From assembly GCA_900541315.1 (NCBI GenBank), contig UQJF01000001.1, forward strand, positions 14,579 through 78,578: a stretch of 64,000 nucleotides of DNA, given 5' to 3'. Source of the DNA: an uncultured Clostridium sp. (GTDB taxonomy: Bacteria > Bacillota > Clostridia > Lachnospirales > Lachnospiraceae). The notes beneath the pieces were generated by a model. It was not told the DNA's origin. It ran no database searches and was given only the letters and a program-made list of their open reading frames with translations. Both the position numbers and the translations under genes were made by a program. Each line of letters begins with the position of its first letter. Position 1 is the first letter of the stretch. Shown one piece after another: positions 7,183-40,322 of the stretch.

Positions 7183-7266
7183 GAACAAAGAATAACCAGT
7201 GGTCCGGCCGTAGTCTGCTTTAAAACAGGAGGCAAGATGGTTACAGGGACCTGCAAGGAGGAAAAA

Positions 7267-8166: not shown

Positions 8167-8245
8167 TGATCACAGGCGTTCGTCACGGCGTTTACCGTGG
8201 CGTAAATGCTCACTTTGAGCTATTTTAGGAGGAAATATTTACATT

Positions 8246-9268: not shown

Positions 9269-9293
9269 GTAAACCATAAGCAAAAAGTAACTG

Positions 9294-9319
9294 TGGCTGA
9301 CGGAAATTTCCGCCAGCCA
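9294..9319. other. Intercistronic palindrome
   Basis: TGGCTG and CAGCCA flank CGGAAATTTCCG, giving a nearly perfect 26-nt hairpin between rfbB and rfbD. There is no T tract, so an RNA processing or stability role is more likely than termination. The core resembles the middle of family 1 repeats (GTGGC, then TTTTCCGCCAG), but the match is short. Confidence 0.5.
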
Positions 9320-9405
9320 TTGACATGTATGATGAGGATTGCAGATGTATATTATGCAGTGCGGTCTGATATCAGAAAGCAAGAACAAAAAGTGAGGGAT
9401 CATTT

Positions 9406-16490: not shown

Positions 16491-16614
16491 GACATTTTTA
16501 TAAAGGTCTGTACACAGGAGAGAAATCTGTTGATTGTGTGCAGACTATTTTTTTGGTACAATAGAACAAGATATTTGCTTTTTGAGACTTATGAATGAAA
16601 AGGAGCGGCATAAA

Positions 16615-17718
16615 ATGAAAAAATACGATTATATATTAGTAGGAAGCGGCCTGTATTCTGGTGTTTTTGCCTGGTACGCAAAGCAGCATGGAAAGTCCTG
16701 TCTGGTAGTGGAAAAGAGAGATCATATTGGCGGAAATGTTTACTGTGAGGGGACAGAAGGCATCCACGTACATAAATACGGTGCCCACATTTTCCATACA
16801 AGTAATAAAGAAGTATGGCAGTTTGTAAATTCTCTGGCAGAGTTCAACCGTTATACTAACAGCCCGGTTGCCAATTACAAAGGTGAAATGTATAATATGC
16901 CGTTTAATATGAATACCTTCAGCAAGATGTGGAATATTTCCACACCGGATCAGGCAAAGGCGATCATTGAAGATCAGAAAAAAGAGGTTACGGGTGAGCC
17001 AAAGAATCTGGAAGAACAGGCTATCAGTCTGGTAGGACGCGAGATCTATGAAAAGCTGGTAAAGGGATATACGGAAAAGCAATGGGGAAGAGACTGTACT
17101 GAGCTTCCGGCTTTTATCATCAAGAGACTGCCTGTGCGTTATACCTATGACAACAATTATTTTAACGACTTATATCAGGGGATCCCGATCGGTGGCTACA
17201 ATGTGATCATCCAGCGTCTCTTCGAGGGCTGTGATATTGAAACAGGTGTAGATTATCTGGAAAAGAAGGAGTATTACGACAGTTTAGGGGAAAAGATCGT
17301 GTATACGGGAACCATTGATGCTTATTATAAGTATCAGTTCGGTAAACTGGAATACCGCAGTCTGCGTTTTGAGTCTGAGATCCTGGATGAGGAGAACTAT
17401 CAGGGCGTTGCTGTAGTGAATTACACGGACCGTGAGACTCCATATACCCGTATCATCGAGCACAAACACTTTGAATTTGGCACCCAGCCCAAGACTGTTA
17501 TTACCAGGGAATATCCGGTTACCTGGCAGGAAGGCATGGAACCATATTATCCGGTCAATGATGAAAAGAACCAGGCGTTGTACCAGAAATACGCCAAACT
17601 GGCTGAAAAAGAAGAAAATGTTATTTTCGGCGGTCGTTTAGGCGAGTATAAATATTATGACATGGACAAAGTGATTGCTTCTGCCATGGTGCGGGCAAAA
17701 GAAATCTTTGGGGCATAA
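16615..17718 (+). CDS. glf: UDP-galactopyranose mutase
   Basis: A flavoenzyme that converts UDP-galactopyranose into UDP-galactofuranose, the donor for galactofuranose in surface glycans. The FAD motif VGSGLYSG is at the N-terminus with EKRDHIGGNVY after it; GAHIFHTS, KGYTEKQWG and FGGRLGEYKYYDMD are UGM hallmarks. ATG 16615 is chosen because AAGGAG precedes it and the protein then begins MKKYDYILVGSG; an upstream in-frame ATG at 16534 adds 27 unrelated residues. Length 367 residues is typical. The matching transferase may be the gene at 26186-27145. Confidence 0.95.
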   Translation: MKKYDYILVGSGLYSGVFAWYAKQHGKSCLVVEKRDHIGGNVYCEGTEGIHVHKYGAHIFHTSNKEVWQFVNSLAEFNRYTNSPVANYKGEMYNMPFNMNTFSKMWNISTPDQAKAIIEDQKKEVTGEPKNLEEQAISLVGREIYEKLVKGYTEKQWGRDCTELPAFIIKRLPVRYTYDNNYFNDLYQGIPIGGYNVIIQRLFEGCDIETGVDYLEKKEYYDSLGEKIVYTGTIDAYYKYQFGKLEYRSLRFESEILDEENYQGVAVVNYTDRETPYTRIIEHKHFEFGTQPKTVITREYPVTWQEGMEPYYPVNDEKNQALYQKYAKLAEKEENVIFGGRLGEYKYYDMDKVIASAMVRAKEIFGA

Positions 17719-18032: not shown

Positions 18033-18125
18033 TACACACACATGTAGACCGTGGACGTACAAAGAAATGTTTGTATGCCACCGGACATGAGAACAGCGTA
18101 AAATTATGTTGGAAACATGCAGGGG

Positions 18126-18140
18126 GATCCGCGAGAACAT
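18126..18140 (+). repeat. Family 1 repeat, end remnant (copy 4)
   Basis: GATCCGCGAGAACAT differs slightly from the family right end (GATTCCGAGAGAACAT). It ends 24 nt before the start codon at 18165, matching the placement of the other copies. Confidence 0.5.
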
Positions 18141-18164
18141 AACAATGATCAAGGAGGACAAAGT

Positions 18165-19400
18165 ATGAAAATCAAAAAAATGATGGCTCTTGTTACAGCA
18201 GCAGCGATGGCATTTGGTCTTGCAGGATGTGGTGGTGGAAATACCGCAGCTACCACAGCAGCACCTACTGAAAAAGCGGAAGGAACTACAGCAGCAGAAG
18301 CTGTTACAGAAGCAACAGAGGCTGCAAAATCAGAAGGCAGTGATAACTGGAAGGTTGCAATTTTAACAGGTACTGTTTCCCAGGGCGAGGAAGAGTTCCG
18401 TGCAGCAGAAAAAGCATTAGCTGCATATGGACCGGAGCACATTGTTACAGCCACTTATCCAGATAACTTTATGTCCGAGATGGAGACCACTGTATCACAG
18501 ATCGTATCTTTTGCATCTGATCCTGATGTAAAAGCTATCGTTATGTGTCAGGCAGTGCCTGGTGCAAAGGCTGGTTTCGATAAGGTCCGTGAGATGGGAA
18601 GAGATGATATCCTTCTGATCGCAGGTACTCCACAGGAAGACCCGGCTGTTATTTCCGCAGCTTCAGATCTTGTTTTATATGCAGATGAAGCAGCACAGGG
18701 CGATACCATTATGGAAAAATGTGCAGACTGGGGCATTGATGTATTTATTCATTATTCCTTCCCACGTCATATGGCAATGGAGCTGATCGTAGCACGTCAC
18801 GAACTTCTTAAGAAGAACGCAGATGCACTTGGCATTGAAATGGTAGATGTTACTGCTCCGGACCCGACAGCAGAGGCTGGAGTTTCTGCTTCCCAGCAGT
18901 TCATTCTGGAAGATGTTCCACAGCAGCTGAAAAAATATGAAGGCAAGAAAGTTGCTTTCTTCACAACTAACTGTGGTATGCAGCCGTCTTTACAGACCGC
19001 TTGCTTAGATGAGCCTAATGCTTATTATCCACAGCCATGCTGCCCGAGTCCATATCACGCATTTCCGGCTACATTAGGACTGGAACTTGCAATTGGCGGT
19101 GATGACGAAGACGCATTAAAGCAGATTGCAGCTAAATTAAAGGAGCATGACGCAGTAGGACGTTACTCTACATGGGCATCCCCGGTTGCTATGACCATTA
19201 TTGCAGTTGGTGTTGATTATGCAAAGGGATATATCACAGGCGAGATTACAGACCGCAATGATGCTGATAAGCTGGTTGAAATGTTTAACTCTAAAGTTGA
19301 AGGGGCAAAGATCAATAATTATACCAATGCAGAAGGTGAAACTTTTGATAATTACTATACCATTCTGCTTGCTCCAGTTGATTTTAATGATTACTTATAA
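18165..19400 (+). CDS. DUF3798 substrate-binding lipoprotein
   Basis: A 411-residue lipoprotein. The signal MKIKKMMALVTAAAMAFGLAGC carries a LAGC lipobox, followed by a Thr/Ala/Glu-rich linker and a periplasmic-binding-protein-like fold that begins with WKVAILTGTVSQGEEEF. The body matches the DUF3798 family; a Cys-rich stretch from NCGMQPSLQTAC to QPCCPSPYHAF is distinctive. Ligand and role are not known. Its place ahead of an RbsA-type ATPase and two permeases makes it the receptor of an ABC importer. The start follows AAGGAGG; upstream ATG 18117 is rejected because it lies before the signal peptide. Confidence 0.85.
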   Translation: MKIKKMMALVTAAAMAFGLAGCGGGNTAATTAAPTEKAEGTTAAEAVTEATEAAKSEGSDNWKVAILTGTVSQGEEEFRAAEKALAAYGPEHIVTATYPDNFMSEMETTVSQIVSFASDPDVKAIVMCQAVPGAKAGFDKVREMGRDDILLIAGTPQEDPAVISAASDLVLYADEAAQGDTIMEKCADWGIDVFIHYSFPRHMAMELIVARHELLKKNADALGIEMVDVTAPDPTAEAGVSASQQFILEDVPQQLKKYEGKKVAFFTTNCGMQPSLQTACLDEPNAYYPQPCCPSPYHAFPATLGLELAIGGDDEDALKQIAAKLKEHDAVGRYSTWASPVAMTIIAVGVDYAKGYITGEITDRNDADKLVEMFNSKVEGAKINNYTNAEGETFDNYYTILLAPVDFNDYL

Positions 19401-19417
19401 GAAACTTGAAATCGGAG

Positions 19418-19453
19418 AAAAGGCTCACCCTGTTGATTTCGGGTGGGCCTTTT
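19418..19453 (+). terminator. Intercistronic partial terminator
   Basis: AAAAGGCTCACCC and GGGTGGGCCTTTT form a stem with one wobble pair just behind the binding-protein gene and before the ATPase gene. This is the usual way to make more binding protein than membrane complex. Confidence 0.75.
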
Positions 19454-19477
19454 CAGCTACAGAAAGGGGGAATTTCA

Positions 19478-21094
19478 ATGAACATAGAAAAAGAGTATGT
19501 TCTTGAGATGAAAGACATTACCAAACATTATGGTGAAAATACCGTATTAAATGGCGTGTCTCTTTCCGTGAAAAAAGGTGAGATCCATGCACTTTTAGGA
19601 GAAAACGGAGCCGGTAAATCCACTTTGATGAATATACTGTTTGGTATGCCAGTCATCCACAGCACAGGGGGCTTTGAAGGAAAAGTCCTTTTAGATGGAG
19701 AAGAAACACATATCTATTCTCCTTATGATGCTATGGAAAAGGGAATTGGTATGGTACATCAGGAATTTATGCTCCTTCCAGGATTTACCATTACTGAAAA
19801 CATCAAATTAAACCGTGAGATCACAAATCCTAATCCGGTGAGCCGCCTTTTTGGAAAGAACCTGGAAAGCCTGGATATGAAGGCAATGGCTTTTGACGCA
19901 AGAAAAGCGCTGGATGCTGTAGGAATGAATCTTGATGAAAAAACCCTGGTTCATGGAATGCCCGTTGGCTATATGCAATTTATTGAGATCGCCCGTGAAA
20001 TCGATAAAACAGGGGTAAAGCTTCTGGTATTTGATGAGCCTACTGCTGTTCTTACGGAAAGTGAGGCAGCCCAGCTTATTTCCGTTATGAAGAAGATCTC
20101 TGAAAGCGGTATCGCTATTATCTTTATCACCCATCGTCTGGACGAAGTAATGGCAGCTTCCAACAGTATTACGATCCTGCGTGACGGAAAGTTAGCGGCC
20201 ACCAGAGAGACTGCAAAGACCAGCATCCGCGAGATCGCGGAGCTCATGGTAGGTCGAAAAGGGGAAGCTATGGTAGAAGCAGCCCTAAGACCTGTTCCAG
20301 GTGAAAAGGTGGCTATGAGCATCCATGATCTCCATGTAGATATGCCAGGTGAGCAGGTAAATGGCTTATCTGTGGATATTTACGAGGGAGAGATCTTTGG
20401 TATCGGCGGTCTGGCAGGCCAGGGAAAACTGGGCATCCCCAATGGTATTATGGGTCTTTATGATGCAGATGGAAAAGTAGAACTGTTTGGACAGGAATTA
20501 AACTTTAAAGATACCAAGTCTGTTTTACAGGCGGGCGTTGCCATGGTTTCAGAAGACCGTAAAGGCGTGGGGCTTTTATTAGACCGTTCCATTGAAGATA
20601 ACATCGTGTTTAATGCTATGCAGATCAAAGGGGAGTATTTGAAGAAATTTGGCCCATTTACCCAGATCGACAGCAAAAAGATCCGGGAAACAGCCCAGGC
20701 GTACATAAAAAATCTGGATATCCGCTGTTTTGGACCAACCCAGCATTCAGGTACATTATCCGGCGGCAACCAGCAGAAGGTTTGTATTGCAAAGGCGCTG
20801 TGCATGTCCCCTAAATTCCTTTTTGTTTCTGAACCTACCCGTGGTATTGACATTGGTGCAAAAAAGCTGGTGTTAGAGACGCTGGTACGCTTAAACAGAG
20901 AGCTGGGAATGACCGTTGTCATAGTTTCCTCAGAACTTCAGGAGCTTAAGAGTGTTTCTGACCGTATTGCCATTGTTTCTGAAGGCAAACTGGTAGATAT
21001 CTTGTCTCCTCAGGCATCAGATGCAGATTATGGTCTGGCTATGTCCGGCATTAAACCGTCTGAGCATACAGAGAAAGGGGGAACAGAAGAATGA
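19478..21094 (+). CDS. ABC importer ATPase, tandem domains (RbsA/YufO type)
   Basis: Two ABC domains in one chain of 538 residues. The first has Walker A GENGAGKST and Walker B LLVFDEPTAV. The second has lost a clear Walker A (GGLAGQGKLG) but keeps the signature LSGGNQQK and the FVSEPTRGID segment; this asymmetry is normal in the RbsA/MglA/YufO group. The start at 19478 follows AGAAAGGGGG; an upstream ATG at 19406 adds residues from the terminator region. It overlaps the first permease by ATGA. The group carries sugars, nucleosides and autoinducer-2; the substrate here is open. Confidence 0.93.
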   Translation: MNIEKEYVLEMKDITKHYGENTVLNGVSLSVKKGEIHALLGENGAGKSTLMNILFGMPVIHSTGGFEGKVLLDGEETHIYSPYDAMEKGIGMVHQEFMLLPGFTITENIKLNREITNPNPVSRLFGKNLESLDMKAMAFDARKALDAVGMNLDEKTLVHGMPVGYMQFIEIAREIDKTGVKLLVFDEPTAVLTESEAAQLISVMKKISESGIAIIFITHRLDEVMAASNSITILRDGKLAATRETAKTSIREIAELMVGRKGEAMVEAALRPVPGEKVAMSIHDLHVDMPGEQVNGLSVDIYEGEIFGIGGLAGQGKLGIPNGIMGLYDADGKVELFGQELNFKDTKSVLQAGVAMVSEDRKGVGLLLDRSIEDNIVFNAMQIKGEYLKKFGPFTQIDSKKIRETAQAYIKNLDIRCFGPTQHSGTLSGGNQQKVCIAKALCMSPKFLFVSEPTRGIDIGAKKLVLETLVRLNRELGMTVVIVSSELQELKSVSDRIAIVSEGKLVDILSPQASDADYGLAMSGIKPSEHTEKGGTEE

Positions 21095-22956
21095 CAAAAA
21101 ATAAGATCCAGAGACTCCTTGCCATTCTTTGCGCAGCAGCAGCAGCCTTCTGTATGGTATTAGGATTTATAAATATGCCCAAACAGAACGGAACGGCAGG
21201 TCAGGAGATCCTTCGTACTATGCGTATCCAGACACTGCTTAATGCTACTGGCGACAGTGTGGTAGAAAGCTATGTGGCTATTGCAAAGCAGGAGGCCCAG
21301 GCAGCAGCCAAGGCATCCGGGGGCGGCATGGCGGCTATCCGTGAAGCAGTAGAAAAAGCAGAAACAGAAACAAGGGAAAAATATGAAAATGGTGCCCAGA
21401 ATGATCTGTCCGGTATTGATACAACGGGTCTTTCAGCAGCCGTTGACGTATATACAGAGGCTGTAAAGGCTTATGCGGAAGCCCAGGCCCAGGCCCGTGC
21501 TGCTTATGAAGAGGCACATTATGCAGAAGCAGAGGCAGCTTTAGAGAAGAAACATGAAGAAATGCTGGCAGCAGGAGAGGAAATTCCGGAAGATGAAGAA
21601 GTAGTGGTAGATATGTCCGGTTTTGAGGCAACTCCTGAAATGATTGAGAAACAGGAAGAAGCAAAGGCTATGTATGCAAATGTAGGGGCTGAGCTGAAAA
21701 AGATCTATCCGGTGCTGACAGATGAAGCCTTAGAAACACTGGAAGAGACTGTAGAAGGCATCCTTTATCAGTCTGGTGACAGTTTTTCTTCCCAGTATGA
21801 CCGTTATGTTAAACAGAGCAATATCAAAGAGACAAATGTAGGACGGCTCATCCGTCATGGAGATGATCTGGTTTATTTAGGCTTTGCGCTTCTGGTACTG
21901 ACTGTGCTGTTATTATTTAACAGCTGGCTTATTGATAAACTGGGTATTCCAAGAGTGATCATTGGAGTGTTCTTTATTTTGCTTTGCTTTATGACCTTAT
22001 GGTATGATTTATCTCTTTCCACGCTTCTTAGCAATACCATCGTGCGAATGGGTATGAATGCTATCATGGTACTGGCAATGGTTCCTGGTATCCAGTGCGG
22101 TATCAGCCTGAACCTGGGTCTTCCTATTGGTCTGGTTGCAGGCCTGATCGGTGGCTTGCTTACCATTGAACTTGGAATTCCAGGATGGGGAGGTTTCCTT
22201 TTTGCCATTGTTTCAGGCTCAGCACTGGCAGCTGTGTGCGGTTATCTGTATGCACTTATGCTAAACCGCTTAAAGGGCTCTGAAATGTCTGTTACCACTT
22301 ACGTTGGTTTTTCTATTGTATCTTTAATGTGTATAGCATGGCTGGTGCTTCCGTTTAAGTCATTAAAGCTTCGCTGGCCATTAGGAACCGGCCTTAGAAA
22401 TACCATTGGTCTGGACGGGACTAATTTTCGCCATATCTTAAATGATTTTCTGGCATTCCAGATCGGTGATTTTACCATTCCAACAGGACTGCTTTTGTTT
22501 ATGTTATTTAGCTGCTTTGTTGTATGGATGTTTTCACGAAGCTGTACCGGTCAGGCTATGCAGGCAGTAGGAAACAACCCGCGCTTTGCAGAATCTGTAG
22601 GTATCAATGTTGATAAAATGCGTATTATAGGTACTGTATTTTCAACAGTATTAGGTGCAGTGGGAATTCTGGTATATTCCCAGAGTTACGGTTTTATGCA
22701 GCTGTACACAGCACCCCGCCAGATGGGTTTTATTGCAGCATCAGCTATCCTTATTGGCGGCGCTTCCACAAGCAGGTGCAAGATCAGCCATGTTCTTATT
22801 GGTACGTTTCTGTTTCAGGGCGTTTTAACATTGGGAATGCCGGTTGCAAACGTATTAGTACCTGGTTCTACTATTTCTGAAACATTGCGTATCCTGATCT
22901 CCAACGGGATCATTCTGTACGCACTTACAAAGTCAGGAGGTGAGTCTCGTGCGTAG
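21091..22956 (+). CDS. ABC importer permease with large extracytoplasmic insertion
   Basis: A 621-residue permease of the BPD_transp_2 (RbsC/YufP) class. The first helix (about 7-27) is followed by roughly 220 hydrophilic residues rich in Ala, Glu and Lys, mostly predicted helical or coiled coil (for example AEAQAQARAAYEEAHYAEAE). The regular permease helices start near residue 255. Permeases of this class are usually 300-400 residues, so the insertion between helix 1 and helix 2 is unusual; it should lie outside the membrane, where the DUF3798 protein docks. It overlaps the ATPase gene by 4 nt and the next permease by 8 nt. Confidence 0.88.
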   Translation: MTKNKIQRLLAILCAAAAAFCMVLGFINMPKQNGTAGQEILRTMRIQTLLNATGDSVVESYVAIAKQEAQAAAKASGGGMAAIREAVEKAETETREKYENGAQNDLSGIDTTGLSAAVDVYTEAVKAYAEAQAQARAAYEEAHYAEAEAALEKKHEEMLAAGEEIPEDEEVVVDMSGFEATPEMIEKQEEAKAMYANVGAELKKIYPVLTDEALETLEETVEGILYQSGDSFSSQYDRYVKQSNIKETNVGRLIRHGDDLVYLGFALLVLTVLLLFNSWLIDKLGIPRVIIGVFFILLCFMTLWYDLSLSTLLSNTIVRMGMNAIMVLAMVPGIQCGISLNLGLPIGLVAGLIGGLLTIELGIPGWGGFLFAIVSGSALAAVCGYLYALMLNRLKGSEMSVTTYVGFSIVSLMCIAWLVLPFKSLKLRWPLGTGLRNTIGLDGTNFRHILNDFLAFQIGDFTIPTGLLLFMLFSCFVVWMFSRSCTGQAMQAVGNNPRFAESVGINVDKMRIIGTVFSTVLGAVGILVYSQSYGFMQLYTAPRQMGFIAASAILIGGASTSRCKISHVLIGTFLFQGVLTLGMPVANVLVPGSTISETLRILISNGIILYALTKSGGESRA

Positions 22957-24178
22957 TAAATTAGATATTCGTGAAATACTGCAGAAAAATGCAGTTACAG
23001 TCATGTTCGTGGTATTATGTATCATCGGACTCATCTGCTCTGGACAGACAGTTTCTTATGTAATGTATGAATTATTCGGCCGCTTAAGCCGAAATGCATT
23101 TATCGTACTGGCACTTATTATTCCTATCGTTGCCGGTATGGGTATCAACTTTGCTATTACCATTGGTGCCATGGCAGCCCAGATCGCAGCTTTGTGGGTG
23201 ATAGAATGGGGCATCAGCGGACTAACCGGATTCCTGGTTGCCATGCTTATGACCATGCCTATTGCAGCGTTTTTTGGTTATCTTATCGGTAAACTGATGA
23301 ACAAGATGAAAGGCCAGGAAATGATCGGAGGCCTGATCTTAGGTTACTTTGCAAATGGATTGTATCAGTTATTGTTCTTGTTTATTTTCGGCAATCTGAT
23401 CCCGTTAAAGGCACCGGGACTGGTGATCAAGGGATCTACCGGTGTTGCCAATACCATCGATCTTTCTACAGACCGTGGTTTTAAATATGCTTTAGATGGC
23501 CTGCTGCGTGTTTCCTTCAGCACAGCCGTTCTCGTTATCTGCGGTATTATGGCAGTGGGGGCGTTAGTAATGTTTGCAATGAAGAAAATGGAGAAGAAAA
23601 AAGCTTTTACTTATGCCGGTATCTGCGTGGGAGCAATTGCAATGGTACAGCTTCCAGTTGTGAAAAATCTATTTTCCATGGTCAGTGTACCAATGGTCAC
23701 TTTCTTCGTTGTAGGATTGCTCTGTATATTTAACAATGCACTGATGAAAACAAAGATCGGTCAGCAGTTCCGTGCCGTTGGCCAGAACCGTACGGTTGCC
23801 AATGCTTCCGGAATCAATGTAGACCGGGTTCGTGTGATAGCCATTGTGATCTCTACTGTACTGGCTGGCTGGGGACAGCTGATCTTTGTTCAGAACATGG
23901 GCTCTTTCCAGACTTACGGTGCCCATGAGCAGGTTGGTCTTTATGCAGGCGCAGCTATCCTGGTAGGCGGTGCATCCATTAAAAAGGCTACTAACGGACA
24001 GGCGCTTCTTGGCTGTATCCTGTTCCACTTACTTTTCATCGTAGCCCCATCTGCAGGAAAGAACCTGTTTGGTGATGCTGCCATTGGTGAGTATTTCCGT
24101 GTATTTATTTCCTATGGAGTTATCGCTCTGGCACTGGTTATGTATGCATGGGGAGATTATAAAAAGAAAAAGAGTTAA
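22949..24178 (+). CDS. ABC importer permease, second subunit
   Basis: An all-helical permease of 409 residues in the BPD_transp_2 class, partner of the gene before it. The EAA-like coupling region GQQFRAVGQNRTVANASGI is clear and equals the position of QAMQAVGNNPRFAESVGI in the other subunit. The start is GTG at 22949, 8 nt after a perfect AGGAGG; a GTG at 22940 overlaps that site and is rejected. The end is followed by a strong terminator, so the operon is binding protein, ATPase, permease, permease. Confidence 0.9.
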   Translation: MRSKLDIREILQKNAVTVMFVVLCIIGLICSGQTVSYVMYELFGRLSRNAFIVLALIIPIVAGMGINFAITIGAMAAQIAALWVIEWGISGLTGFLVAMLMTMPIAAFFGYLIGKLMNKMKGQEMIGGLILGYFANGLYQLLFLFIFGNLIPLKAPGLVIKGSTGVANTIDLSTDRGFKYALDGLLRVSFSTAVLVICGIMAVGALVMFAMKKMEKKKAFTYAGICVGAIAMVQLPVVKNLFSMVSVPMVTFFVVGLLCIFNNALMKTKIGQQFRAVGQNRTVANASGINVDRVRVIAIVISTVLAGWGQLIFVQNMGSFQTYGAHEQVGLYAGAAILVGGASIKKATNGQALLGCILFHLLFIVAPSAGKNLFGDAAIGEYFRVFISYGVIALALVMYAWGDYKKKKS

Positions 24179-24270: not shown

Positions 24271-26103
24271 TTACTGCTTAGAGCATTGAGCTAAAATTTC
24301 TTTAAGGGCTTTTACCAGTATATTATCTTCTGCCTCGTTCCGGATGGCAATCCGTAAAAACTGGCGGCCGTTTCTGGAAATCTTGGAGGACAGGTCTTTG
24401 ATAAACAGGTTATAGCGGGTCAAAAGAAGCTCTGTTATCTCTGTGGCGCTGATGCTCTTGCCTGTCAGTTCCACCATCAGGTAATTTGCCTGGGATGGGA
24501 AGACGCGGACACCTGGGAGATTACTTAGTTTTTCTGCAAAACGGGTTCGCTCTCCACGGAGTTTGTCTAAAGCGGAGTCATAGTCTTTTCTGTATTTCTC
24601 TTCGATCTGCATATAAAATTCACCGAAGGAATTGATATTCCAGATGGCAACATCTTTTTTCAGCTGTCCGATCAGGTCAGTATCGCCGCTGGCAGCCACT
24701 CCCAGACGCAGTCCGGGGATACCATAAGACTTGGAAATACTTTTTACCACGATCATATGTGGATTTTCATCTAACAGTTCTTCCACCAAAAGGGTAGGTT
24801 CTGCTTCTTCTGAGAAATCTACAAAGGACTCATCTGCAAGGAAGCGGATGTTTTTTTCTTTTGTCCAGCGGGCCAGCTTTAACATGCCCTTACGGGAGAT
24901 ATAATTGCCGGTAGGATTGTCCGGATTGACAAGTACCAGACAGTCAAGATTTTTACCTTCAAAGAAGTCCATTACATCATTTTCATCATAGGAGAAATCT
25001 TCTGTCTGGGGAACGAAGGCAATGACCTTTTCTTTGTCACAACGGTTTGCATATTCTTCAAAAGCAGGACGGATCACACCAAGATTACCCTTTACACGCT
25101 CCATAAGGGCTTTGATCAGCTCTGCAGCGCCATTTCCTATAACGATCTGGTTCTGGCGCAGGGAGAAGTTTCTGGCAGCCAGAAGAGAGTTTACAGCCAT
25201 TCCGGAAGGATACTGTCTTGCAAGGACGTCAAAATTATGTTTGATCTCATCCATCATTTTTTCAGGCGGATAATAACTGTTTACCAGATAGCAGAAATCC
25301 AGCATTTTCGGATAACGCCAGTAGCCGCCGAAGCGCTTCTGGATCAGGTGGGTGCGTTCCTTTTCCGGTGCGAAAATGGACTCAGCAATGTTAAGATCCT
25401 GGATATCGTCAATTTCATACCAGCGCTGGTTCTCATCCAGACGTTTTGCCTTGATGCCTGGATCATCTAAAGTTACCAGAATCTTTAATACCTGTTCATA
25501 GTATTCATTATTTCCCAGTGCTTTTGTATAAGCTTCCAGGAAAGGAACATAATGTGTCCTGGAAAATTCACGGCTGAATTTATAAAGATTTACGGTCTTG
25601 TAATAATGTTCTGTATCGGAAAAACGGAATTTTTTGCCTGGGATCATGGCTTCGATATCATCCTGATCAGAGAGGACCAGACAGGTTCCATCCATCCAGG
25701 ACTCGTATTTTGCAGCCAGGGCAAGACTGTCTCTTGGATCATCAGTAAGGCTGTTTAATACAGAGTCTTCAAAGATGATATCGGACTCTAAAAGAAGAGT
25801 ATCTTCCTTTAACAGATAGTCTTTTGCCAGGAAAAGGGAGTAGATATTGTTAGTGCGGTCATAGACCGGATTGTCGATAAAGACAACAGGTGTTTTGATA
25901 TGCAGACTTTCAATATGTTCCCGAAGCTTCTGACCTTCATAACCGGTAACAATAACGATCCGGGACAGGTCATGCTGTTCTAGCTGGCTTAAGGTGCGGT
26001 TGATCAGAGGAACACCGTTTACCTTTACCATACATTTTGTATTATTCTGTGTCAGCTGCTTTAAACGTTTTCCCATTCCGGCAGCCAGGATGATTGCTTG
26101 CAT
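24271..26103 (-). CDS. Cytidylyltransferase-PLP aminotransferase/decarboxylase fusion
   Basis: Two enzymes in 610 residues. Residues 1-240 are a LicC-like nucleotidyltransferase: LAAGMGKRL at 7-15, the LESDIIFED metal site near 105-113 and NTKCMVKVNGVPLI. Residues 260-610 are a fold-type I PLP enzyme of the HisC/CobD branch: VNPDNPTGN at 392-400, ADES with Asp424, and the PLP lysine in SISKSYGIPGLRLG (Lys458). LicC activates phosphocholine with CTP; CobD relatives decarboxylate phosphothreonine or phosphoserine. Inferred job: make a phospho-amino-alcohol and activate it as a CDP derivative for LicD. It differs from PntC, whose transaminase belongs to another branch and which sits with phosphonate genes absent here. 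Confidence 0.8.
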   Translation of the reverse strand: MQAIILAAGMGKRLKQLTQNNTKCMVKVNGVPLINRTLSQLEQHDLSRIVIVTGYEGQKLREHIESLHIKTPVVFIDNPVYDRTNNIYSLFLAKDYLLKEDTLLLESDIIFEDSVLNSLTDDPRDSLALAAKYESWMDGTCLVLSDQDDIEAMIPGKKFRFSDTEHYYKTVNLYKFSREFSRTHYVPFLEAYTKALGNNEYYEQVLKILVTLDDPGIKAKRLDENQRWYEIDDIQDLNIAESIFAPEKERTHLIQKRFGGYWRYPKMLDFCYLVNSYYPPEKMMDEIKHNFDVLARQYPSGMAVNSLLAARNFSLRQNQIVIGNGAAELIKALMERVKGNLGVIRPAFEEYANRCDKEKVIAFVPQTEDFSYDENDVMDFFEGKNLDCLVLVNPDNPTGNYISRKGMLKLARWTKEKNIRFLADESFVDFSEEAEPTLLVEELLDENPHMIVVKSISKSYGIPGLRLGVAASGDTDLIGQLKKDVAIWNINSFGEFYMQIEEKYRKDYDSALDKLRGERTRFAEKLSNLPGVRVFPSQANYLMVELTGKSISATEITELLLTRYNLFIKDLSSKISRNGRQFLRIAIRNEAEDNILVKALKEILAQCSKQ

Positions 26104-26185: not shown

Positions 26186-27145
26186 TCAAATTATTTTGTA
26201 TCCACTTCCAGGCAGGTAATCCGGGGATTTCCCGTCAGGTGTTTTATGGCGGTTTTTCAGTACATCTTTGTAAATTTTAATACGGTAACGGCGCATTTCT
26301 TTCTGGTCTCCAAACAGAAGTCCGAGGGTATCTAAGAAAATGTGAGCCTTGTGGTTCAGCCAGATATATGCCATGTACAGGCGGGGATTCTTGGAATAGG
26401 TCTTTCCTATATCAATGGCATTGCGGAAGCCGTAGTAGTTTTTCCAGCTGATGGCCGGGGCAGAACTGGCAGGTGTTGTTTTATGGTTTAAAACAGCTGT
26501 GGTCACATTTAAGATACGTGACTGATCATGGAAACGCAGACAGTATTCTGTATCATCAAACCAGATAAAATATTCCGTTTTTGGAAGGCCTATCCTTCGC
26601 ACCATGTCAGCCTTTACCAACAGACCGCAGAAGGTGCTGATATCGTATTCAAAAGAAGCTTTGGCATATGCTTCTTCCGGTACTGGTCCATAAAGCATCA
26701 GCCGGGGACATTTAATGAAACGCCGGTGGGTGGTGTCAATGGATCCGGCAGTGGTTACTGTACCAGAATATGCCAGATAATTTGTCCTTAAGATGGCTTT
26801 CTGAAGCTGTTCTATATAATCGGCTGCGATCATGGCATCATCATCAATGATCAGGATCCAGTCACAGTCTGTTTTTCCAAGATTCTCAATACCTTTTGCA
26901 AAGCCGCCTGCTCCGCCGATATTTTCCGGAAGATGAAGAATGTGAAATTCCGGTTTATTTTTGTCAGAGGAAGCTGTTTGGGTCTCAGCCACCAGCTGGT
27001 CCAGATACTTTGAAGTACCGTCTGTACTATTGTTGTCTACTATACAAATATAGGAAAAGGGAACTGTCTGCGACAGAACCTGTTGTACGCATTCTTTTAA
27101 TAATTCCAGCCGGTTGTACGTAACGATGGTAACTGCGAATTTCAC
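26186..27145 (-). CDS. Family 2 glycosyltransferase, galactofuranosyltransferase-like
   Basis: A 319-residue GT-A enzyme. VTIVTYNRLELLKECV opens it, IVDNNSTDGT follows, and IIDDDAMI is the metal-binding DDD motif. The WFDDTEYCLRF segment is typical of the GlfT/rhamnosyltransferase branch and supplies the catalytic base region. The C-terminal part is typical for this branch. UDP-galactofuranose from glf would be a natural donor, but donor identity cannot be read directly. It is transcribed from a clear promoter and is followed by the fusion enzyme after 82 nt. Confidence 0.82.
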   Translation of the reverse strand: MKFAVTIVTYNRLELLKECVQQVLSQTVPFSYICIVDNNSTDGTSKYLDQLVAETQTASSDKNKPEFHILHLPENIGGAGGFAKGIENLGKTDCDWILIIDDDAMIAADYIEQLQKAILRTNYLAYSGTVTTAGSIDTTHRRFIKCPRLMLYGPVPEEAYAKASFEYDISTFCGLLVKADMVRRIGLPKTEYFIWFDDTEYCLRFHDQSRILNVTTAVLNHKTTPASSAPAISWKNYYGFRNAIDIGKTYSKNPRLYMAYIWLNHKAHIFLDTLGLLFGDQKEMRRYRIKIYKDVLKNRHKTPDGKSPDYLPGSGYKII

Positions 27146-27231: not shown

Positions 27232-27368
27232 AAAAATCTCTTTGGCAGTTTCAATTTTAGTGTTATATTTACGTAGCTATGATTTGGGTGGGGGAATTTT
27301 GTTGCATATACAGAAGAAATGTGATAATCTACCAATATAGGATTCCTCTGTATTACGGAGGAAGAAAA

Positions 27369-28328
27369 ATGAGTAAAAAAACACTGGAAGAACTGGTATT
27401 TCATGACGATTTTATGTTTGCGGCTGTTATGATGGATGCAGAAAACTGCAGATGTTTTCTGGAACGTGTATTGGAGATCCGGATTGAAAGAGTTGAGATC
27501 AGTGCGGAGCATGGCTTCTTTTTTAATCCAGAATGCAAGAGCATTCGCATGGATGTATTTGCAAAAGATGAAAACAGGACACATTATGACATTGAGATGC
27601 AGCTGGTAAAAAAAGATAGTCTGGAAAAACGCAGCCGTTATTACCACAGTCAGATGGATGTGGAAATGTTGGAAAAAGGGAAGAGTTATGGAGAACTGGC
27701 AGATACATATGTCATTTTTATTTGTAACTTTGATCCACTGGGACAGAAAAAATGCCGTTACACTATCCGGAGATATTGTGAAGAAACAGGAAATGTATTT
27801 GGTGACGGGGTCTGTACCGTTTTTCTTAACACAAACGGAGAAAATCGAGAGGAAGTACCGAAGGAACTGACATCATTACTTGATTTTGTTAAGGCTGATC
27901 TGGTTGGAAGCGAAGCTGATTATGAAGATATATTTGTCAAACAGCTTCAGAATTCCATGCGTCAGATTAAAAGAAGCCGGAAAATGGGGGAACGCTATAT
28001 GATGTTTGAGCAGTATATGAAAGAGTATGTTCAGGAGCATGCAGATGAGATCCGGGAAGAAGCCAGAGAAGAAGGACTGGCAGAAGGTCGTGCAGAAGGA
28101 CTGGCAGAGGGCCGTGCAGAGGGCCGTGCAGAAGGACTGGCAGAGGGCCGTGCAGAAGGACATGCAGAAGGACATGCAGAAGGACATGCAGAAGGTCAGG
28201 AAGAAGCTACGGTCAGACTGAATAAATTATATTCTTGTCTTCTGACATCAGGGCGTGCAGATGATTTACAGCGTGCAGTGAAAGATCCTGCATATCTGAA
28301 ACAGTTACTGCAGGAATTTGGATTCTGA
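27369..28328 (+). CDS. Rpn/PD-(D/E)XK nuclease-family protein with EGRAEGLA repeats
   Basis: A 320-residue protein of the Rpn (YhgA-like) putative transposase/nuclease family. The N-terminal DDFMFAAVMMDAENCRCFLERVL and DIEMQLVKKDSLEKRSRYYHSQMD stretches are family marks; D in RMDVFA and the EMQ pair form the likely PD-(D/E)XK core. Residues 230-275 are a tandem array of EGLA, EGRA and EGHA units encoded by imperfect 12-nt repeats (28074-28196). Such repeats are common in this family and vary in number. The start at 27369 has GGAGGAAG upstream. RpnA of E. coli is a DNA endonuclease that promotes recA-independent recombination; the role here is unknown. Confidence 0.85.
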   Translation: MSKKTLEELVFHDDFMFAAVMMDAENCRCFLERVLEIRIERVEISAEHGFFFNPECKSIRMDVFAKDENRTHYDIEMQLVKKDSLEKRSRYYHSQMDVEMLEKGKSYGELADTYVIFICNFDPLGQKKCRYTIRRYCEETGNVFGDGVCTVFLNTNGENREEVPKELTSLLDFVKADLVGSEADYEDIFVKQLQNSMRQIKRSRKMGERYMMFEQYMKEYVQEHADEIREEAREEGLAEGRAEGLAEGRAEGRAEGLAEGRAEGHAEGHAEGHAEGQEEATVRLNKLYSCLLTSGRADDLQRAVKDPAYLKQLLQEFGF

Positions 28329-28704: not shown

Positions 28705-29367
28705 TTAGTATTCGTAATCATATTCTATATCATCGTCTGCCGTGTCATCTCCTGGTTCATCTACAGCGTCATGGTAGGTTTCATCCAGTACACCGTCAGA
28801 ATCGAAATAGTAATACTTTCCATCTATGGTCAGACCTCCGGTTACCATAGCACCGCTGGTATTAAAATAGTACCAGTGTCCATTTAACTGCTGCCAGCCG
28901 GTAAGCATATATCCATCACTGTTAAATAAATAGGTGGAACCGTCGATAGCAGCTGTTCCGTCGGCGTAATAAGTATTTTCAGAAGAACGATACCACCAGC
29001 CATGGTCGTCATGCTGCCAGCCGGTGGAAACTTCCGGTGCTGTGGTTTCTGGTGGGGTCTGGGTTTGGGAAGAAGACTGATTTTGGGAGGAAGAACCACC
29101 TGAAGATCCGGACTTACCAGAAGAAGAACCGCCTCTATAAGGGCAGACACCGTTTGGATGCAGATGAGCAGGATAGCTGCCGCAGTGATAATGGTAGCTT
29201 CCAAGCCCGCTTTTATTTTTATTGTCCCGATGTCCGCCGTTTGCATCTGTCCGTCCGGGATGAGCCGCAGCCTCTATAACCAGATTGCCGGATATTCCGG
29301 TAAATCCAGGTGTAAGGCCTAAAGAAAGGCTGAATGTTGTGATAAGAATAGCTAAGGTTTTTTTCAT
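28705..29367 (-). CDS. Secreted YHYH-domain protein with cell-wall-binding repeats
   Basis: A 220-residue exported protein. A signal peptide (about 1-30) is followed by the YHYH module: AHPGRTDANGGHRD, then SYHYHCG at 57-63 and AHLHPNGVCPY, with many His and two Cys that suggest metal binding. A Ser-rich linker leads to three to four YG-type wall-binding repeats (for example GWQQLNGHWYYFNTSG). These belong to the choline-binding-like CW_binding family. The tail is very acidic (DEPGDDTADDD). It probably sits on the cell wall; enzyme activity is not evident. A family 1 repeat precedes it on its own strand. Confidence 0.85.
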   Translation of the reverse strand: MKKTLAILITTFSLSLGLTPGFTGISGNLVIEAAAHPGRTDANGGHRDNKNKSGLGSYHYHCGSYPAHLHPNGVCPYRGGSSSGKSGSSGGSSSQNQSSSQTQTPPETTAPEVSTGWQHDDHGWWYRSSENTYYADGTAAIDGSTYLFNSDGYMLTGWQQLNGHWYYFNTSGAMVTGGLTIDGKYYYFDSDGVLDETYHDAVDEPGDDTADDDIEYDYEY

Positions 29368-36397: not shown

Positions 36398-36450
36398 GAG
36401 CCAAGAGACAGAATAATTTCGAGAAAACAGAAATGTACATGGAGAAATTT

Positions 36451-37914
36451 ATGAGCAAAACACCCAGCGTTCGAAAAAATTATATTTACAACCTGATCTA
36501 CCAGGTGATGACTCTGATCACCCCTTTTATCACAACGCCCTATATTTCCCGTGTTCTGGGGGCGGACGGAACGGGAATACAAAGCTATACCAATTCCGTG
36601 GTCCAGTATTTTGCTATACTGGCGGCGCTGGGAACAGCTTCTTATGGGCAGAGGGAGATCGCAAGACACAGAGATGATCTAAAGATGCGCAGCCGACTTT
36701 TCTGGGAGATCGAGATGCTCTGTATGGCAACTACAGCAGCATGTCTTATCATCTGGCTGTTTGTGATCGGCTTTGCAAAGGAATACCGGCCTTATTATAT
36801 TGTGCTTACTATGACGCTCACAGCTGTGGCTTTTGATATTTCCTGGTTTTTTGGTGGTCTTGAGCAGTATTCACTGATCGTTCTGCGAAATACGGCAGTG
36901 AAGCTTATTGGCATTGCCATGCTGTTTTTATTTATCCGGGAAAAAGAAGACCTTCTGCTGTACGTGGCGCTGACTGCGGCAACAGGACTTCTGGGAAATA
37001 TCTCTATGTGGGGGTATTTAAAGGGACAGGTAGAAAGGCCGGTTTTAAAGGAACTTTGTCCTTTGCGCCATTTAAAAGAGACTTTGGTTTATTTTATTCC
37101 TACTATTGCCACTTCCGTGTATACCATTCTGGATAAGACCATGCTTGGCTGGTTTTCCGGGGAAAATAAATCACAGAACGGTTATTATGAATATGCCACC
37201 GGTTTTGTAAATATGGCGAAAATACTGATCATGTCTTTTAATGCAGTTATGTCCGCACGCATGTCCTATTTATTTGGGAATGGGCAAATGGAGGAGATCC
37301 ATAAGCGTATCCGGGAATCCCTGGATTTCGTGCTTTTAATGGCGATGCCTATTATGCTGGGGCTGGCGGGGATTGCAGCCGGGTTTATCCCATGGTTTTT
37401 AGGAAATGGATATCTGCCGGTGACATTTTTAATGTATGTGTGCAGTCCACTGGTGCTGGTAGTAGGCTTAAGTGACTGTATCGGCAGCCAGATATTAACT
37501 CCCGGAGGTAAACGTGCCCAGAGCGGAAAAGTGATCGTGGCGGGAGCAGTGGTCAATGCCTGTTTAAATTTCCTGCTGATCCCCCATTTTGCAGCTCTGG
37601 GAGCAGCTGCTGCGTCAGTAGCAGCAGAGTGTTTTATCACCTCCCTTTATCTGTGGCTGGGAAGAGATTTTATAAAGCTGGGAATGCTGGTGCGATATGG
37701 CTGGAAACGGCTTGTGGCAGCTGTAGTTATGTTAGGAGCTGTAGTGTGGACGGGGCAGTTTTTGGAACAGGTCCGGGGACTTGGACCGATCACTACCTTT
37801 GTACAGATCGGAGCAGGGGCAGTAGTGTATTTCCTGGTGCTTTTGGTTATGCATGATGTGTTCCTGTACCGGTATCTGGGAATTATATACAGGCGGCTGA
37901 CAGGACAGCTATAG
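36451..37914 (+). CDS. Polysaccharide flippase (Wzx/MATE-like)
   Basis: A 487-residue integral membrane protein of the polysaccharide biosynthesis/export flippase family. The N-terminus NYIYNLIYQVMTLITPFIT and YISRVLGADGTGIQSYTNS are typical of Wzx-type proteins that move lipid-linked repeat units across the membrane. About 12-14 helices are expected. ATG 36451 is chosen over 36433 because ATGGAG lies 9 nt before it. A licD gene follows after about 105 nt, so the flipped glycan may be the one LicD decorates. Confidence 0.88.
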   Translation: MSKTPSVRKNYIYNLIYQVMTLITPFITTPYISRVLGADGTGIQSYTNSVVQYFAILAALGTASYGQREIARHRDDLKMRSRLFWEIEMLCMATTAACLIIWLFVIGFAKEYRPYYIVLTMTLTAVAFDISWFFGGLEQYSLIVLRNTAVKLIGIAMLFLFIREKEDLLLYVALTAATGLLGNISMWGYLKGQVERPVLKELCPLRHLKETLVYFIPTIATSVYTILDKTMLGWFSGENKSQNGYYEYATGFVNMAKILIMSFNAVMSARMSYLFGNGQMEEIHKRIRESLDFVLLMAMPIMLGLAGIAAGFIPWFLGNGYLPVTFLMYVCSPLVLVVGLSDCIGSQILTPGGKRAQSGKVIVAGAVVNACLNFLLIPHFAALGAAAASVAAECFITSLYLWLGRDFIKLGMLVRYGWKRLVAAVVMLGAVVWTGQFLEQVRGLGPITTFVQIGAGAVVYFLVLLVMHDVFLYRYLGIIYRRLTGQL

Positions 37915-38020
37915 AATTGCGAGAGTGGAAAGTACGCAGCAATTCAGTATCAGAGGGGTTAAAATACCTATAAAAGAAAGCTTAGGTCAGACAAAAACAG
38001 TTTGGAGGGAATCAGGGGAC

Positions 38021-38908
38021 ATGCTGAAAGAAAAGCCGGAATTTTATAAAGAAGAAATACGCTGCGGATACACCGTAGATGAAAAAACGAAACGTGTTTG
38101 GGCAGTGCAGCTGGAAATGCTGGATGAAGTAGAACGTATCTGTAAAGCCAATGGGCTTAAATATTTTGCTGACAGCGGAACTCTGATCGGGGCTATCCGC
38201 CATGAAGGATATATTCCCTGGGATGACGATATTGATCTGGTGATGCTGCGGGAAGATTATGATAAATTTGTGCAGATCGCTCCAGCATGGCTGAAAGAAG
38301 ATCTGGTGCTTCAGACTGTGTATACAGAGAAAAATTACCTTCGGGGTCATGCACAGATCCGTAACAGCAAAACCTGCGGCTGCAATGAAGAAGATAAAAA
38401 GGCGGGATATAACTGCGGTATTTTCATTGATATTTTTCCCTTAGATGGTATGCCGGATACAGCAAAAGGAAGAAAAAGCTGGGCGAAGAAGATAGAATTT
38501 TACTGGATGGTACTGTATACATGGTATCGGTTTGATTATTATGAAAATGCAACATTTTTCGGAAAGCTCCTTCATGGCGTTGGAACCATTCTTCATGTTC
38601 CTATGCGCAAAGCGTATAAGGGTTATGAAAAATTGTGTACCCGTTTTAAAGGAAAAGACACGGAATACGTCTGCGATACTGTATTTATCCGCTATCTGGA
38701 GAAGAATACCTGGAAGAGGGAATGGTTCAAAGAAGCTGTCTACATGCCTTTTGAAAACCGTAAAATACCTGTTCCAGTAGGTTATGACGGAAGACTTACA
38801 GCTGAATATGGCGATTACATGAAACCGGCCAAAGCGCCGACTATGCATGGCGGACTGATCTTGGATCCGGATGTGCCATATACGGAATATTTAAAAAGAG
38901 AAAATTGA
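38021..38908 (+). CDS. licD: LicD-family phosphotransferase
   Basis: A 295-residue LicD protein. The defining motifs are the DSGTLIGAIRHEGYIPWDDD stretch at 51-70 with the metal-binding WDDDIDL at 67-73, then the CGIFIDIFPLDGMP block. LicD enzymes transfer phosphocholine or a similar group from a CDP donor to a surface glycan or teichoic acid. ATG 38021 follows GGAGGGA and GGGGA; a GTG at 37925 could add 32 residues that do not look like the family. The closest donor maker in the window is the fusion enzyme at 24271-26103. No licA (choline kinase) or choline importer is seen. Confidence 0.85.
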   Translation: MLKEKPEFYKEEIRCGYTVDEKTKRVWAVQLEMLDEVERICKANGLKYFADSGTLIGAIRHEGYIPWDDDIDLVMLREDYDKFVQIAPAWLKEDLVLQTVYTEKNYLRGHAQIRNSKTCGCNEEDKKAGYNCGIFIDIFPLDGMPDTAKGRKSWAKKIEFYWMVLYTWYRFDYYENATFFGKLLHGVGTILHVPMRKAYKGYEKLCTRFKGKDTEYVCDTVFIRYLEKNTWKREWFKEAVYMPFENRKIPVPVGYDGRLTAEYGDYMKPAKAPTMHGGLILDPDVPYTEYLKREN

Positions 38909-39176: not shown

Positions 39177-40322
39177 CTATTTTTTTCTGTAATAATACTG
39201 GATACCTCTTAAGAGCCCATCTGTTTCCAGATGGTCAAAATCGAGCTGAACAGGAATGCCTGGAATATCTGGAAGGTAGAATCGCCCGTCTTTGATCTGG
39301 GATACAACCTTAAAGTAAGGAATCAATACTTCATTTAATGGCTGATGGAATTCCAGAAGTTCATTTTCGGAATAGAGGGCACCTAAAGCGGCATTTATAA
39401 ATGGAAAGCCGCCAGTAGAAATACGGCAGTTATGTTGGTGGGCATAATCCCGTACACGCATGATTTCAGCAAGGCAGTATAAACGGGCAGGCTGGAGATG
39501 ATCTACGCCATGTTCTGCATAATCCACATGAGCATGATAACTTCTGACAGATTCACCCATAGCAATTTCCATGGAAATACCGGCATTATCCATCTGGTCG
39601 CGCAGAGAGCGAAGCGCCTCCATGTCAAAAGCATGGACAGGTTCTTCAAACCATTCCACATTATAAGGAGCAGCAGCTTTTGCAAATTCAAAAGCGGTAT
39701 CAGCATCCCAGGCTTGGTTTGCATCTACAGCAATGCCAAAATCATCGCCCAGAGCCAGTCGGGCTTTTTCAAGACGGCGGACATCTGCAGACCAGTCATT
39801 GCCATTTCCACCAATCTTAAATTTGGTGATTTTGAAACCTTCTGATTTGAAGCGGAGAAGATCGTCTAAAAGGGCTTCATCGCTAAGAAGCACAGAACCG
39901 CCGCCTTTATAGACGCTGGCCCAGTCTTTTGTGGCACCAAGAAAACGATGAAGTGGCTTTTGGGCCCGGTTGGCTAAAAGGTCTAAAAGGATCCAGTCCA
40001 GATTAAACATTTCTGCAACATAAGGGCTTTGATAGCCAAAGTTGCGGATCTCCCACCAGAAGTAATGAGTCCATTCACTATTGGTTTTTCCGCCTTGCTC
40101 TAATAGTCTTGGGACAAAGAAATCTACCATGATACGGGAAGCTGGGCCCTGACCACAGAAACCATCTTCGTCATATACTTTTAGCCAGCCCTGGAAAAAG
40201 GATGCATGACGGATCCCGCCAGTTCCGTCTTTAAAAGGAACTGGAAGTGGAATAGGTGCTACATTATAAAATATAGCTTCTTTGATTTTAAGGACATCTG
40301 GATAGTTAAAAAGATAGTTCAT
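39177..40322 (-). CDS. Enolase-superfamily (mandelate racemase/MLE) dehydratase
   Basis: A 381-residue enzyme of the mandelate racemase/muconate lactonising group. The KxK base motif (Lys167, Lys169) is in ITKFKIGG. Metal ligands are Asp200 in AVDANQAW, Glu226 in WFEEPV, and Glu in AMGESV, with a STGGFPF stretch near the C-terminus. The usual His-Asp base pair is not clear, so the stereochemistry is uncertain. Members dehydrate aldonic or aldaric acids, or cycloisomerise. It overlaps the tandem LysR gene by 4 nt, so regulator and enzyme are co-translated, an uncommon arrangement. Confidence 0.82.
   Translation of the reverse strand: MNYLFNYPDVLKIKEAIFYNVAPIPLPVPFKDGTGGIRHASFFQGWLKVYDEDGFCGQGPASRIMVDFFVPRLLEQGGKTNSEWTHYFWWEIRNFGYQSPYVAEMFNLDWILLDLLANRAQKPLHRFLGATKDWASVYKGGGSVLLSDEALLDDLLRFKSEGFKITKFKIGGNGNDWSADVRRLEKARLALGDDFGIAVDANQAWDADTAFEFAKAAAPYNVEWFEEPVHAFDMEALRSLRDQMDNAGISMEIAMGESVRSYHAHVDYAEHGVDHLQPARLYCLAEIMRVRDYAHQHNCRISTGGFPFINAALGALYSENELLEFHQPLNEVLIPYFKVVSQIKDGRFYLPDIPGIPVQLDFDHLETDGLLRGIQYYYRKK

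Follow-up and report, generated by a model that had tools for sequence, protein, structure and literature searches.

A cytidylyltransferase fused to a CobD-like PLP enzyme in Clostridia: a predicted one-protein route from phosphoserine to CDP-ethanolamine

INTRODUCTION

The PntC-AEPT protein of Treponema denticola (Tde1415; structures 6PD1/6PD2) joins an N-terminal cytidylyltransferase of the LicC/PntC type to an amine-making C-terminal pyridoxal 5'-phosphate (PLP) enzyme. The same layout, together with a like pair of glutamates in the acceptor pocket, is found in a 610-residue protein encoded at 24271..26103 on the minus strand of the DNA analyzed here, a 64,000-nucleotide stretch of contig UQJF01000001.1 from an uncultured Clostridium sp. 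of the Lachnospiraceae (referred to below as the window). The two fusions differ in their second partner: the PLP half of PntC-AEPT is a class V aminoethylphosphonate transaminase encoded in a phosphonate cluster, whereas that of the window protein is of the class I/II CobD type, and a phosphoenolpyruvate (PEP) mutase is not nearby. On sequence evidence we consider it moderately probable that this fusion turns phosphoserine into phosphoethanolamine and then into cytidine diphosphate (CDP)-ethanolamine, which LicD would use on a surface glycan.

Each half can also be compared with described enzymes that act as separate proteins. LicC of the Lic-1 pathway (1JYK) shares the cytidine triphosphate (CTP) transferase fold and motif as well as a LicD partner, but its phosphocholine pocket carries aspartates and its choline is imported, not made. 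SMUL_1544 of Sulfurospirillum multivorans (6OUX) belongs to the same clade as the PLP half, shares with it a C-Y-L-x-N-x-Y stretch and S426, and is its first Foldseek match; it differs in being a standalone enzyme for norcobamide, about 31% identical, with an arginine where the fusion has Lys569. CobD (1LC5-1LC8) resembles the PLP half in fold, in the PLP lysine and in the equivalent of its R337, whereas its substrate is threonine phosphate and its N32 and R323 are changed in the fusion. Cj1436 of Campylobacter jejuni, which converts L-serine phosphate to ethanolamine phosphate for the capsule, is likened to the fusion by its reported reaction in surface polysaccharide synthesis rather than by sequence; it is reported as a separate enzyme whose product ends up in amide linkage to glucuronate and is not CDP-activated (PMC11800397).

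RESULTS

The fusion is a conserved two-domain protein

The architecture, the family assignments, the conserved catalytic residues and the gene neighborhoods reported below were all computed. The open reading frame (ORF) starts with an ATG at 26103 and has no internal stops. Pfam places NTP_transferase at residues 3-119 of the translation (45.8 bits), NTP_transf_3 in the same half (43.7 bits; the two together span residues 3-123) and Aminotran_1_2 at residues 315-600 (100.3 bits), all above the curated cut-offs, and a sequence search of the PDB with the whole protein returned SMUL_1544 (6oux, 167 bits), CobD (1lc5), LicC (1jyk) and PntC-AEPT (6pd1), with fold searches described below. With domains above cut-off and PDB matches to both enzyme types, the initial annotation, which had proposed a CTP transferase fused to a CobD/HisC-like PLP enzyme, saw a true two-domain protein; its coordinates were exact, and the strand, which it did not give, is minus.

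Relatives are encoded in 380 genome stretches drawn from one genome for each of 84,980 species, and the best 80 of these 380 loci carry the same two-domain protein at 60-74% identity, some of them truncated where the contig ends and one (L028) with a disrupted reading frame. The hosts of these 80 are mostly metagenome-assembled Lachnospiraceae and other Clostridia, along with Erysipelotrichaceae, a few Treponema and others. Within one order, the fusion is carried by 17 of 246 genomes at 42-65% identity, with in-match stop codons in three of the 17 (G097, G197 and G222) and two pairs of near-twins (G097/G197 and G073/G135). A search of 5.8 billion proteins gave at least 7998 candidates at E 0.001 or better, with both domain types in the 120 matches listed. 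Since the same two-domain protein recurs across many genome loci, an assembly accident is ruled out, and a chance fusion was likewise rejected because the architecture is family-wide; the fusion is a two-domain protein and probably a bifunctional enzyme. Its distribution is patchy, like that of surface polysaccharide genes. The protein thus represents a common variation on an established design, and a description of it or of its pathway was not found among the titles and abstract openings listed by searches of open-licence PubMed Central; in the few source names of its relatives that we saw, the annotation is aminotransferase only.

The C-terminal half groups with a serine-O-phosphate decarboxylase

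The C-terminal half (residues 246-610; 24274..25368, minus strand) has SMUL_1544 as its best PDB sequence match (168.8 bits), followed by CobD 1lc5 (111.1 bits), and the SMUL_1544 record (P0122) is named by its source "norcobamide biosynthesis serine-O-phosphate decarboxylase." A maximum-likelihood tree was built from 19 fusions, 15 of the 120 listed SMUL_1544 relatives, five CobD-type proteins, 3ftb and one HisC. The fusions and the 15 SMUL_1544-type proteins form one group in this tree (Shimodaira-Hasegawa-like approximate likelihood ratio test [SH-aLRT] 99.2, ultrafast bootstrap [UFBoot] 100), with the CobD-type proteins, 3ftb and HisC outside it, and the fusions make up a subgroup of their own within the clade (91.3/96). 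Individual positions follow the same division: L273 is common to the fusions and the SMUL_1544-type proteins, the four CobD-type proteins covering this site having Asn instead, while S426, also common to both, is Ala or Cys in four of the five CobD-type proteins and Ser in 3fkd. A C-(Y/F)-L-x-N-x-Y stretch is common to those fusions and SMUL_1544-type proteins that are printed in the alignment.

Residue conservation was tabulated first for the window plus 79 of the 80 loci, the frame-broken one being left out, and then for 88 sequences, namely the window, 77 of the 80 loci and another 10 loci at 42-63% identity, two of which are near-twins; counts of invariance given here refer to the 88. K458, the PLP lysine that had been recognized from the outset as retained, is invariant, and so are D424, N396, R466, Y298 and R584. 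The last of these is the equivalent of CobD R337, which, like CobD R323, we take to be a binder of the substrate phosphate. Foldseek with a model of the C-terminal half (predicted local distance difference test [pLDDT] 92.7) ranked SMUL_1544 first and Salmonella enterica CobD next. The full-length model is poorer (pLDDT 78.1) and includes weakly predicted stretches at each of the two active sites, and for this reason the residue claims rest on alignments, for this half with 6oux and 1lc5.

The N-terminal half has a PntC-like acceptor pocket

The N-terminal half (residues 1-245; 25369..26103, minus strand) was called LicC-like in the initial annotation. This holds in so far as LicC 1jyk and PntC-AEPT 6pd1 are its best PDB sequence matches; the substrate pocket, however, is closer to that of PntC, and a profile of 17 N-terminal halves aligned Tde-PntC over residues 2-240 and LicC over residues 2-101 only. 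The alignments with 6pd1 and 1jyk, read together with conservation, mark out R13, K23, E106, D108, E203, D232 and D233. Among these, R13 and K23, which correspond to the consensus catalytic Arg and Lys, and E106 and E203, where the LicC aspartates are absent, are each found in all 88 sequences. E106 lies inside an LLLESD motif that is identical in Tde-PntC, and E203 lies inside a Y-E-x-x-L motif, on which its equivalence to Glu196 of Tde-PntC rests, since the printed HMMER alignment puts Y202 opposite Glu196. In Tde-PntC, Glu104 and Glu196 stand at the primary amine of aminoethylphosphonate, and Spn-LicC has Asp at both places (the choline-pocket residues D105 and D192) and a 2700-fold preference for phosphocholine over phosphoethanolamine (PMC6697681). 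Because a PntC-type glutamate pair replaces these aspartates, the pocket appears to favor a small primary amine rather than choline as the substrate of the N-terminal half.

Association with DUF1015 and serA

A DUF1015 gene was found as one match over cut-off in each of 17 fusion genomes, counted as 17 of the 20 then known with G097, G197 and G200 left out. A serA-like gene adjoins DUF1015 in 9 of 12 fetched loci, seven of these calls being made by Pfam (2-hydroxyacid dehydrogenase domains) and two (L107 and L108) by sequence only; the remaining three loci are L101, where the fusion of G230 is encoded, plus L102 and L103, in which neither a serA-like gene nor the fusion is seen. DUF1015 also comes close to the fusion itself, lying within about 2 kb of it in 4 of the 17 genomes (G012, G057, G080 and G230), three of which also have an octopine dehydrogenase. 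The chance probability of this adjacency is about 1e-7 to 1e-6, assuming independence and computed after the pattern had been seen. Among the best 80 loci it is the +1 gene of the fusion in L020, L037 and L070, and because L037 is G057, DUF1015 stands beside the fusion in six distinct genomes.

This association points to phosphoserine as the substrate of the PLP half and hints at serine or phosphoserine as what DUF1015 acts on. A profile search of DUF1015 against solved serine kinases gave no convincing match (best E 0.7), and we therefore claim no kinase role for it. The family (printed as DU1015) has been named among domains combined with a ParB fold (PMC12704722).

The window retains a surface polysaccharide gene order

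A LicD gene had been put forward as the matching transferase for the CDP product. That gene is real (ORF at 37925..38908, plus strand; Pfam LicD, 157 bits), is 69% identical to the LicD of locus L001 and is a candidate user of the CDP product, although some fusions stand with no LicD close by. Across the Enterocloster/Lachnoclostridium loci L001-L009, the genes typically run, with some members missing, as LicD and a flippase on one strand, a GT2 glycosyltransferase and the fusion on the other, and then a UDP-galactopyranose mutase (Glf) on the first. The window keeps the L001 order at 68-81% identity (tblastn spans: LicD 38015-38899, flippase 36403-37908, Glf 16615-17700). Pfam, tblastn and gene order together identify the GT2 gene directly upstream of the fusion (26186..27145, minus strand), which is 68% identical to the GT2 beside the L001 fusion and rhamnosyl/galactofuranosyl-like in NCBIfam, below cut-off; the polysaccharide flippase adjoining LicD (36433..37914, plus strand; 70% to the L001-locus flippase); and Glf (16534..17718, plus strand; 81% to the L006 copy), which lies beyond the fusion, just as it does in L001, L002, L003 and L005-L008. 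Inserted among these genes are a transposase-like gene, two ABC (ATP-binding cassette) transport systems, an RpiR-type regulator and others. As the order matches that of relatives and has been pulled apart by insertions, LicD, now 11 kb from the fusion, is probably an old neighbor.

The stretch separating the fusion operon from the flippase-LicD pair includes 27279-28328 (plus strand), which encodes a transposase of the PD-(D/E)XK nuclease family that has an AEG-rich repeat close to the C-terminus. The interval from the fusion to Glf holds, at 18117-24178 (plus strand), genes for a DUF3798 protein, an ABC ATPase and two permeases that are absent from this place in L001. Two proteins with choline-binding repeats, one of them with an L,D-transpeptidase domain, are encoded at 28705-29367 and 53387-54889 (minus strand) and are possible readers of a phospho-amine-decorated polymer. 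A 634-residue ORF at 40319-42223 (minus strand) has LysR helix-turn-helix and LysR substrate-binding domains in two stretches each, and genes of dTDP-rhamnose type by Pfam, which we take to belong to the dTDP-rhamnose pathway, occupy 7237-10266.

The window was scanned with Pfam over 50 ORFs, out of the non-overlapping ORFs of 120 amino acids or more with 3063-3425 and 62519-63073 left out; among these 50, a phosphonate gene was not found and a cobamide gene was not recognized. A tblastn search of the window with one or two representatives each (E 1e-5) found no octopine dehydrogenase, ornithine cyclodeaminase (OCD)-family gene, DUF1015 or SerA.

Opine-type dehydrogenases recur beside the fusion in other genomes

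Neighborhoods of up to eight ORFs on each side were compared in 81 loci (the window and the best 80 of the 380), with labels taken from single-linkage BLAST clusters of which one representative each was scanned; many loci are cut by contig ends. The 81-locus and 17-genome samples are not independent, since several loci are the same genomes (at least L043 = G001, L037 = G057, L011 = G203 and L027 = G056, by identical contig coordinates), and L017 and L040 are one strain. The clusters found near the fusion were GT2 (38 loci), LicD (37), the Octopine_DH family (33, among them L061:9834-10910, L012, L013, L014, L017 and L022), flippase (28) and epimerase (27), followed by OCD/mu-crystallin (16), a second LicC-like gene (14) and a CDP-glycerol-type phosphotransferase (11). 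LicD or the CDP-glycerol-type transferase is near the fusion in 48 of the 81 loci.

In 29 of the 81 loci an octopine-dehydrogenase-family gene is directly adjacent to the fusion on the same strand, with a gap of 100 bases or less in 28 of the 29 (median 6), and an OCD/mu-crystallin gene is adjacent in 12. Of the 81 loci, 46 have one or the other near the fusion, and none of these 46 is among the 13 Enterocloster-type loci. The two occur together in only three of the 81, an avoidance with Fisher p 0.04 on all loci and 0.006 without the 13 Enterocloster-type sequences, a subset chosen after looking. The Octopine_DH representative (L061) matches PF02317 with 101.6 bits, octopine dehydrogenase 3c7a at E 2e-22 and N-(1-D-carboxylethyl)-L-norvaline dehydrogenase 1bg6 at E 1e-8; the single OCD representative matches pyrroline-2-carboxylate reductase 6t3e and the putative ornithine cyclodeaminase 4m54. 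Genome-wide, Octopine_DH is rare, being present in 14 of 246 genomes, 6 of 17 with the fusion versus 8 of 229 others (Fisher p 9e-5, uncorrected for kinship), and within about 7 kb of the fusion in five of the six genomes that carry both. The corresponding enrichment of OCD is weak (5/17 versus 28/229; Fisher p 0.06, uncorrected for kinship), and OCD is next to the fusion in one (G155) of five genomes with both. Other neighbors include an ATP-grasp ligase that carries an L-amino acid ligase domain (L043:11870-13084 and L027) and a short-chain dehydrogenase at +1 (L059:6002-6874 and L065), and these may offer additional routes for modifying the amine.

As opine-type dehydrogenase genes recur near the fusion, an N-carboxyalkyl-ethanolamine phosphate is suggested as a product. 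We tentatively outline, as a possibility rather than an expectation, a surface pathway of many Clostridia and some Treponema in which the fusion is followed by an octopine-dehydrogenase- or OCD/mu-crystallin-type reductase that would N-alkylate ethanolamine phosphate, and then by LicD, with the lineage of the window having the plain ethanolamine version. The reductase would couple a keto acid, for example pyruvate, to the amine, yielding N-(1-carboxyethyl)ethanolamine phosphate or a close relative, and either dehydrogenase family would be able to fill this position in place of the other. Chemically, such a group is already known from O-polysaccharides of enterobacteria, and N-[(R)-1-carboxyethyl]ethanolamine phosphate belongs to Proteus. 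A review covering Proteus mirabilis and Klebsiella pneumoniae includes it in its list of O-polysaccharide constituents (PMC9630907), and Providencia is described as having alanopine and N-(1-carboxyethyl)lysine (PMC10609480); the excerpts of these two sources used here name no gene for the N-carboxyethylation step.

DISCUSSION

In the route we propose, the PLP half would decarboxylate O-phospho-L-serine, an intermediate of serine biosynthesis, to phosphoethanolamine, and the N-terminal half would couple this to cytidine monophosphate (CMP) from CTP, giving CDP-ethanolamine. A LicD-type enzyme, or elsewhere one resembling CDP-glycerol phosphotransferases, would then move phosphoethanolamine onto a surface polysaccharide, to be exported by the neighboring flippase. 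Both reactions, the order of the steps and the acceptor glycan are what we infer. This phosphoserine route, one of several products considered in the initial annotation, emerges as the best supported of them through the serine-O-phosphate decarboxylase clade, the DUF1015/serA association, the PntC-like pocket and the conserved LicD order, and the activity remains a predicted one. Several observations weigh against it. The position of CobD R323 is occupied by a lysine (K569) in all 88 sequences, where all compared CobD and SMUL_1544 proteins have arginine, so that of the CobD phosphate residues only the R337 equivalent is kept. In the structural comparison with CobD and HisC, some HisC-type transaminases outscore one CobD-labelled chain, and S. 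enterica CobD ties with SMUL_1544 by VIA-align Z. The co-occurrence of the fusion with licD is also partial: 37 of 81 loci have a LicD cluster member close to the fusion, and in 12 of 17 fusion genomes LicD was found at any position.

The same K569 substitution, and a fold shared with HisC-type transaminases, would suit a PLP half that transaminates, for example, dihydroxyacetone phosphate to serinol phosphate, the final product being CDP-serinol or a similar CDP-amino-alcohol. Such a step has a precedent in Cj1437, which forms (S)-serinol phosphate from dihydroxyacetone phosphate (PMC11800397), but the nearest named enzyme by sequence, by tree and by Foldseek rank is a decarboxylase, and the DUF1015/serA association points to phosphoserine, so that we regard transamination as unlikely. 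A preference for phosphothreonine, which would give CDP-1-amino-2-propanol, a linker of the cobalamin type that would be redirected to a cobamide or the cell surface, is in keeping with the CobD tie and with NCBIfam, where CobD TIGR01140 is the best family of the fusion; its score of 167.8 bits is nevertheless far below the cut-off of 290.55. The best CobD-like genes of four fusion genomes fall below this cut-off as well (286.3, 269.5 and 228.7), and one that scores better than the fusion is present elsewhere in G001, G002 and G004, though not in G003. Together with the grouping of the PLP half with a serine-phosphate enzyme, this makes phosphothreonine an improbable substrate, and a cobamide role was rejected on account of the separate CobD-like genes in three of the four genomes and the absence of any recognized cobamide gene among the scanned window ORFs.

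The remaining alternatives concern what the N-terminal half activates. LicC 1jyk is its first or second PDB match and the window encodes two choline-binding-repeat proteins, as might be expected if it acted on phosphocholine in a Lic-1 type choline decoration with the PLP half as a side activity or regulator; we hold this to be very unlikely, as glutamates replace two LicC aspartates in all 88 sequences, a change linked to a smaller pocket (PMC6697681), and choline use offers no evident function for a PLP enzyme. The two-domain layout of 6pd1/6pd2, the common N-terminal enzyme type and the PntC-like glutamates would equally fit a phosphonate enzyme making CMP-2-aminoethylphosphonate, and a PEP_mutase-family match (PF13714) exceeds its cut-off in 2 of the 17 fusion genomes. 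Both matches, however, are on contigs other than that of the fusion, the scanned window ORFs include no phosphonate gene, and the PLP half is Aminotran_1_2 rather than a class V aminoethylphosphonate transaminase. The phosphonate route, already doubted in the initial annotation, was accordingly rejected and appears to us extremely improbable.

Bacteria usually draw the phosphoethanolamine of their glycans from a phospholipid, and they obtain choline-type groups by importing precursors. If the phosphoserine route is correct, a single soluble protein would make CDP-ethanolamine from phosphoserine, a bacterial Kennedy-type route that needs neither uptake nor lipid and that would be common in gut and rumen Clostridia; it would also be a second case of the PntC-AEPT design, with a different class of PLP partner. 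For DUF1015, a serA-linked family of unknown function, the association with the fusion offers a hint that can be tested. More surprising is that opine-type dehydrogenases, outside the window, are repeatedly paired with the fusion; they would provide a testable gene set for N-carboxyalkyl ethanolamine phosphate.
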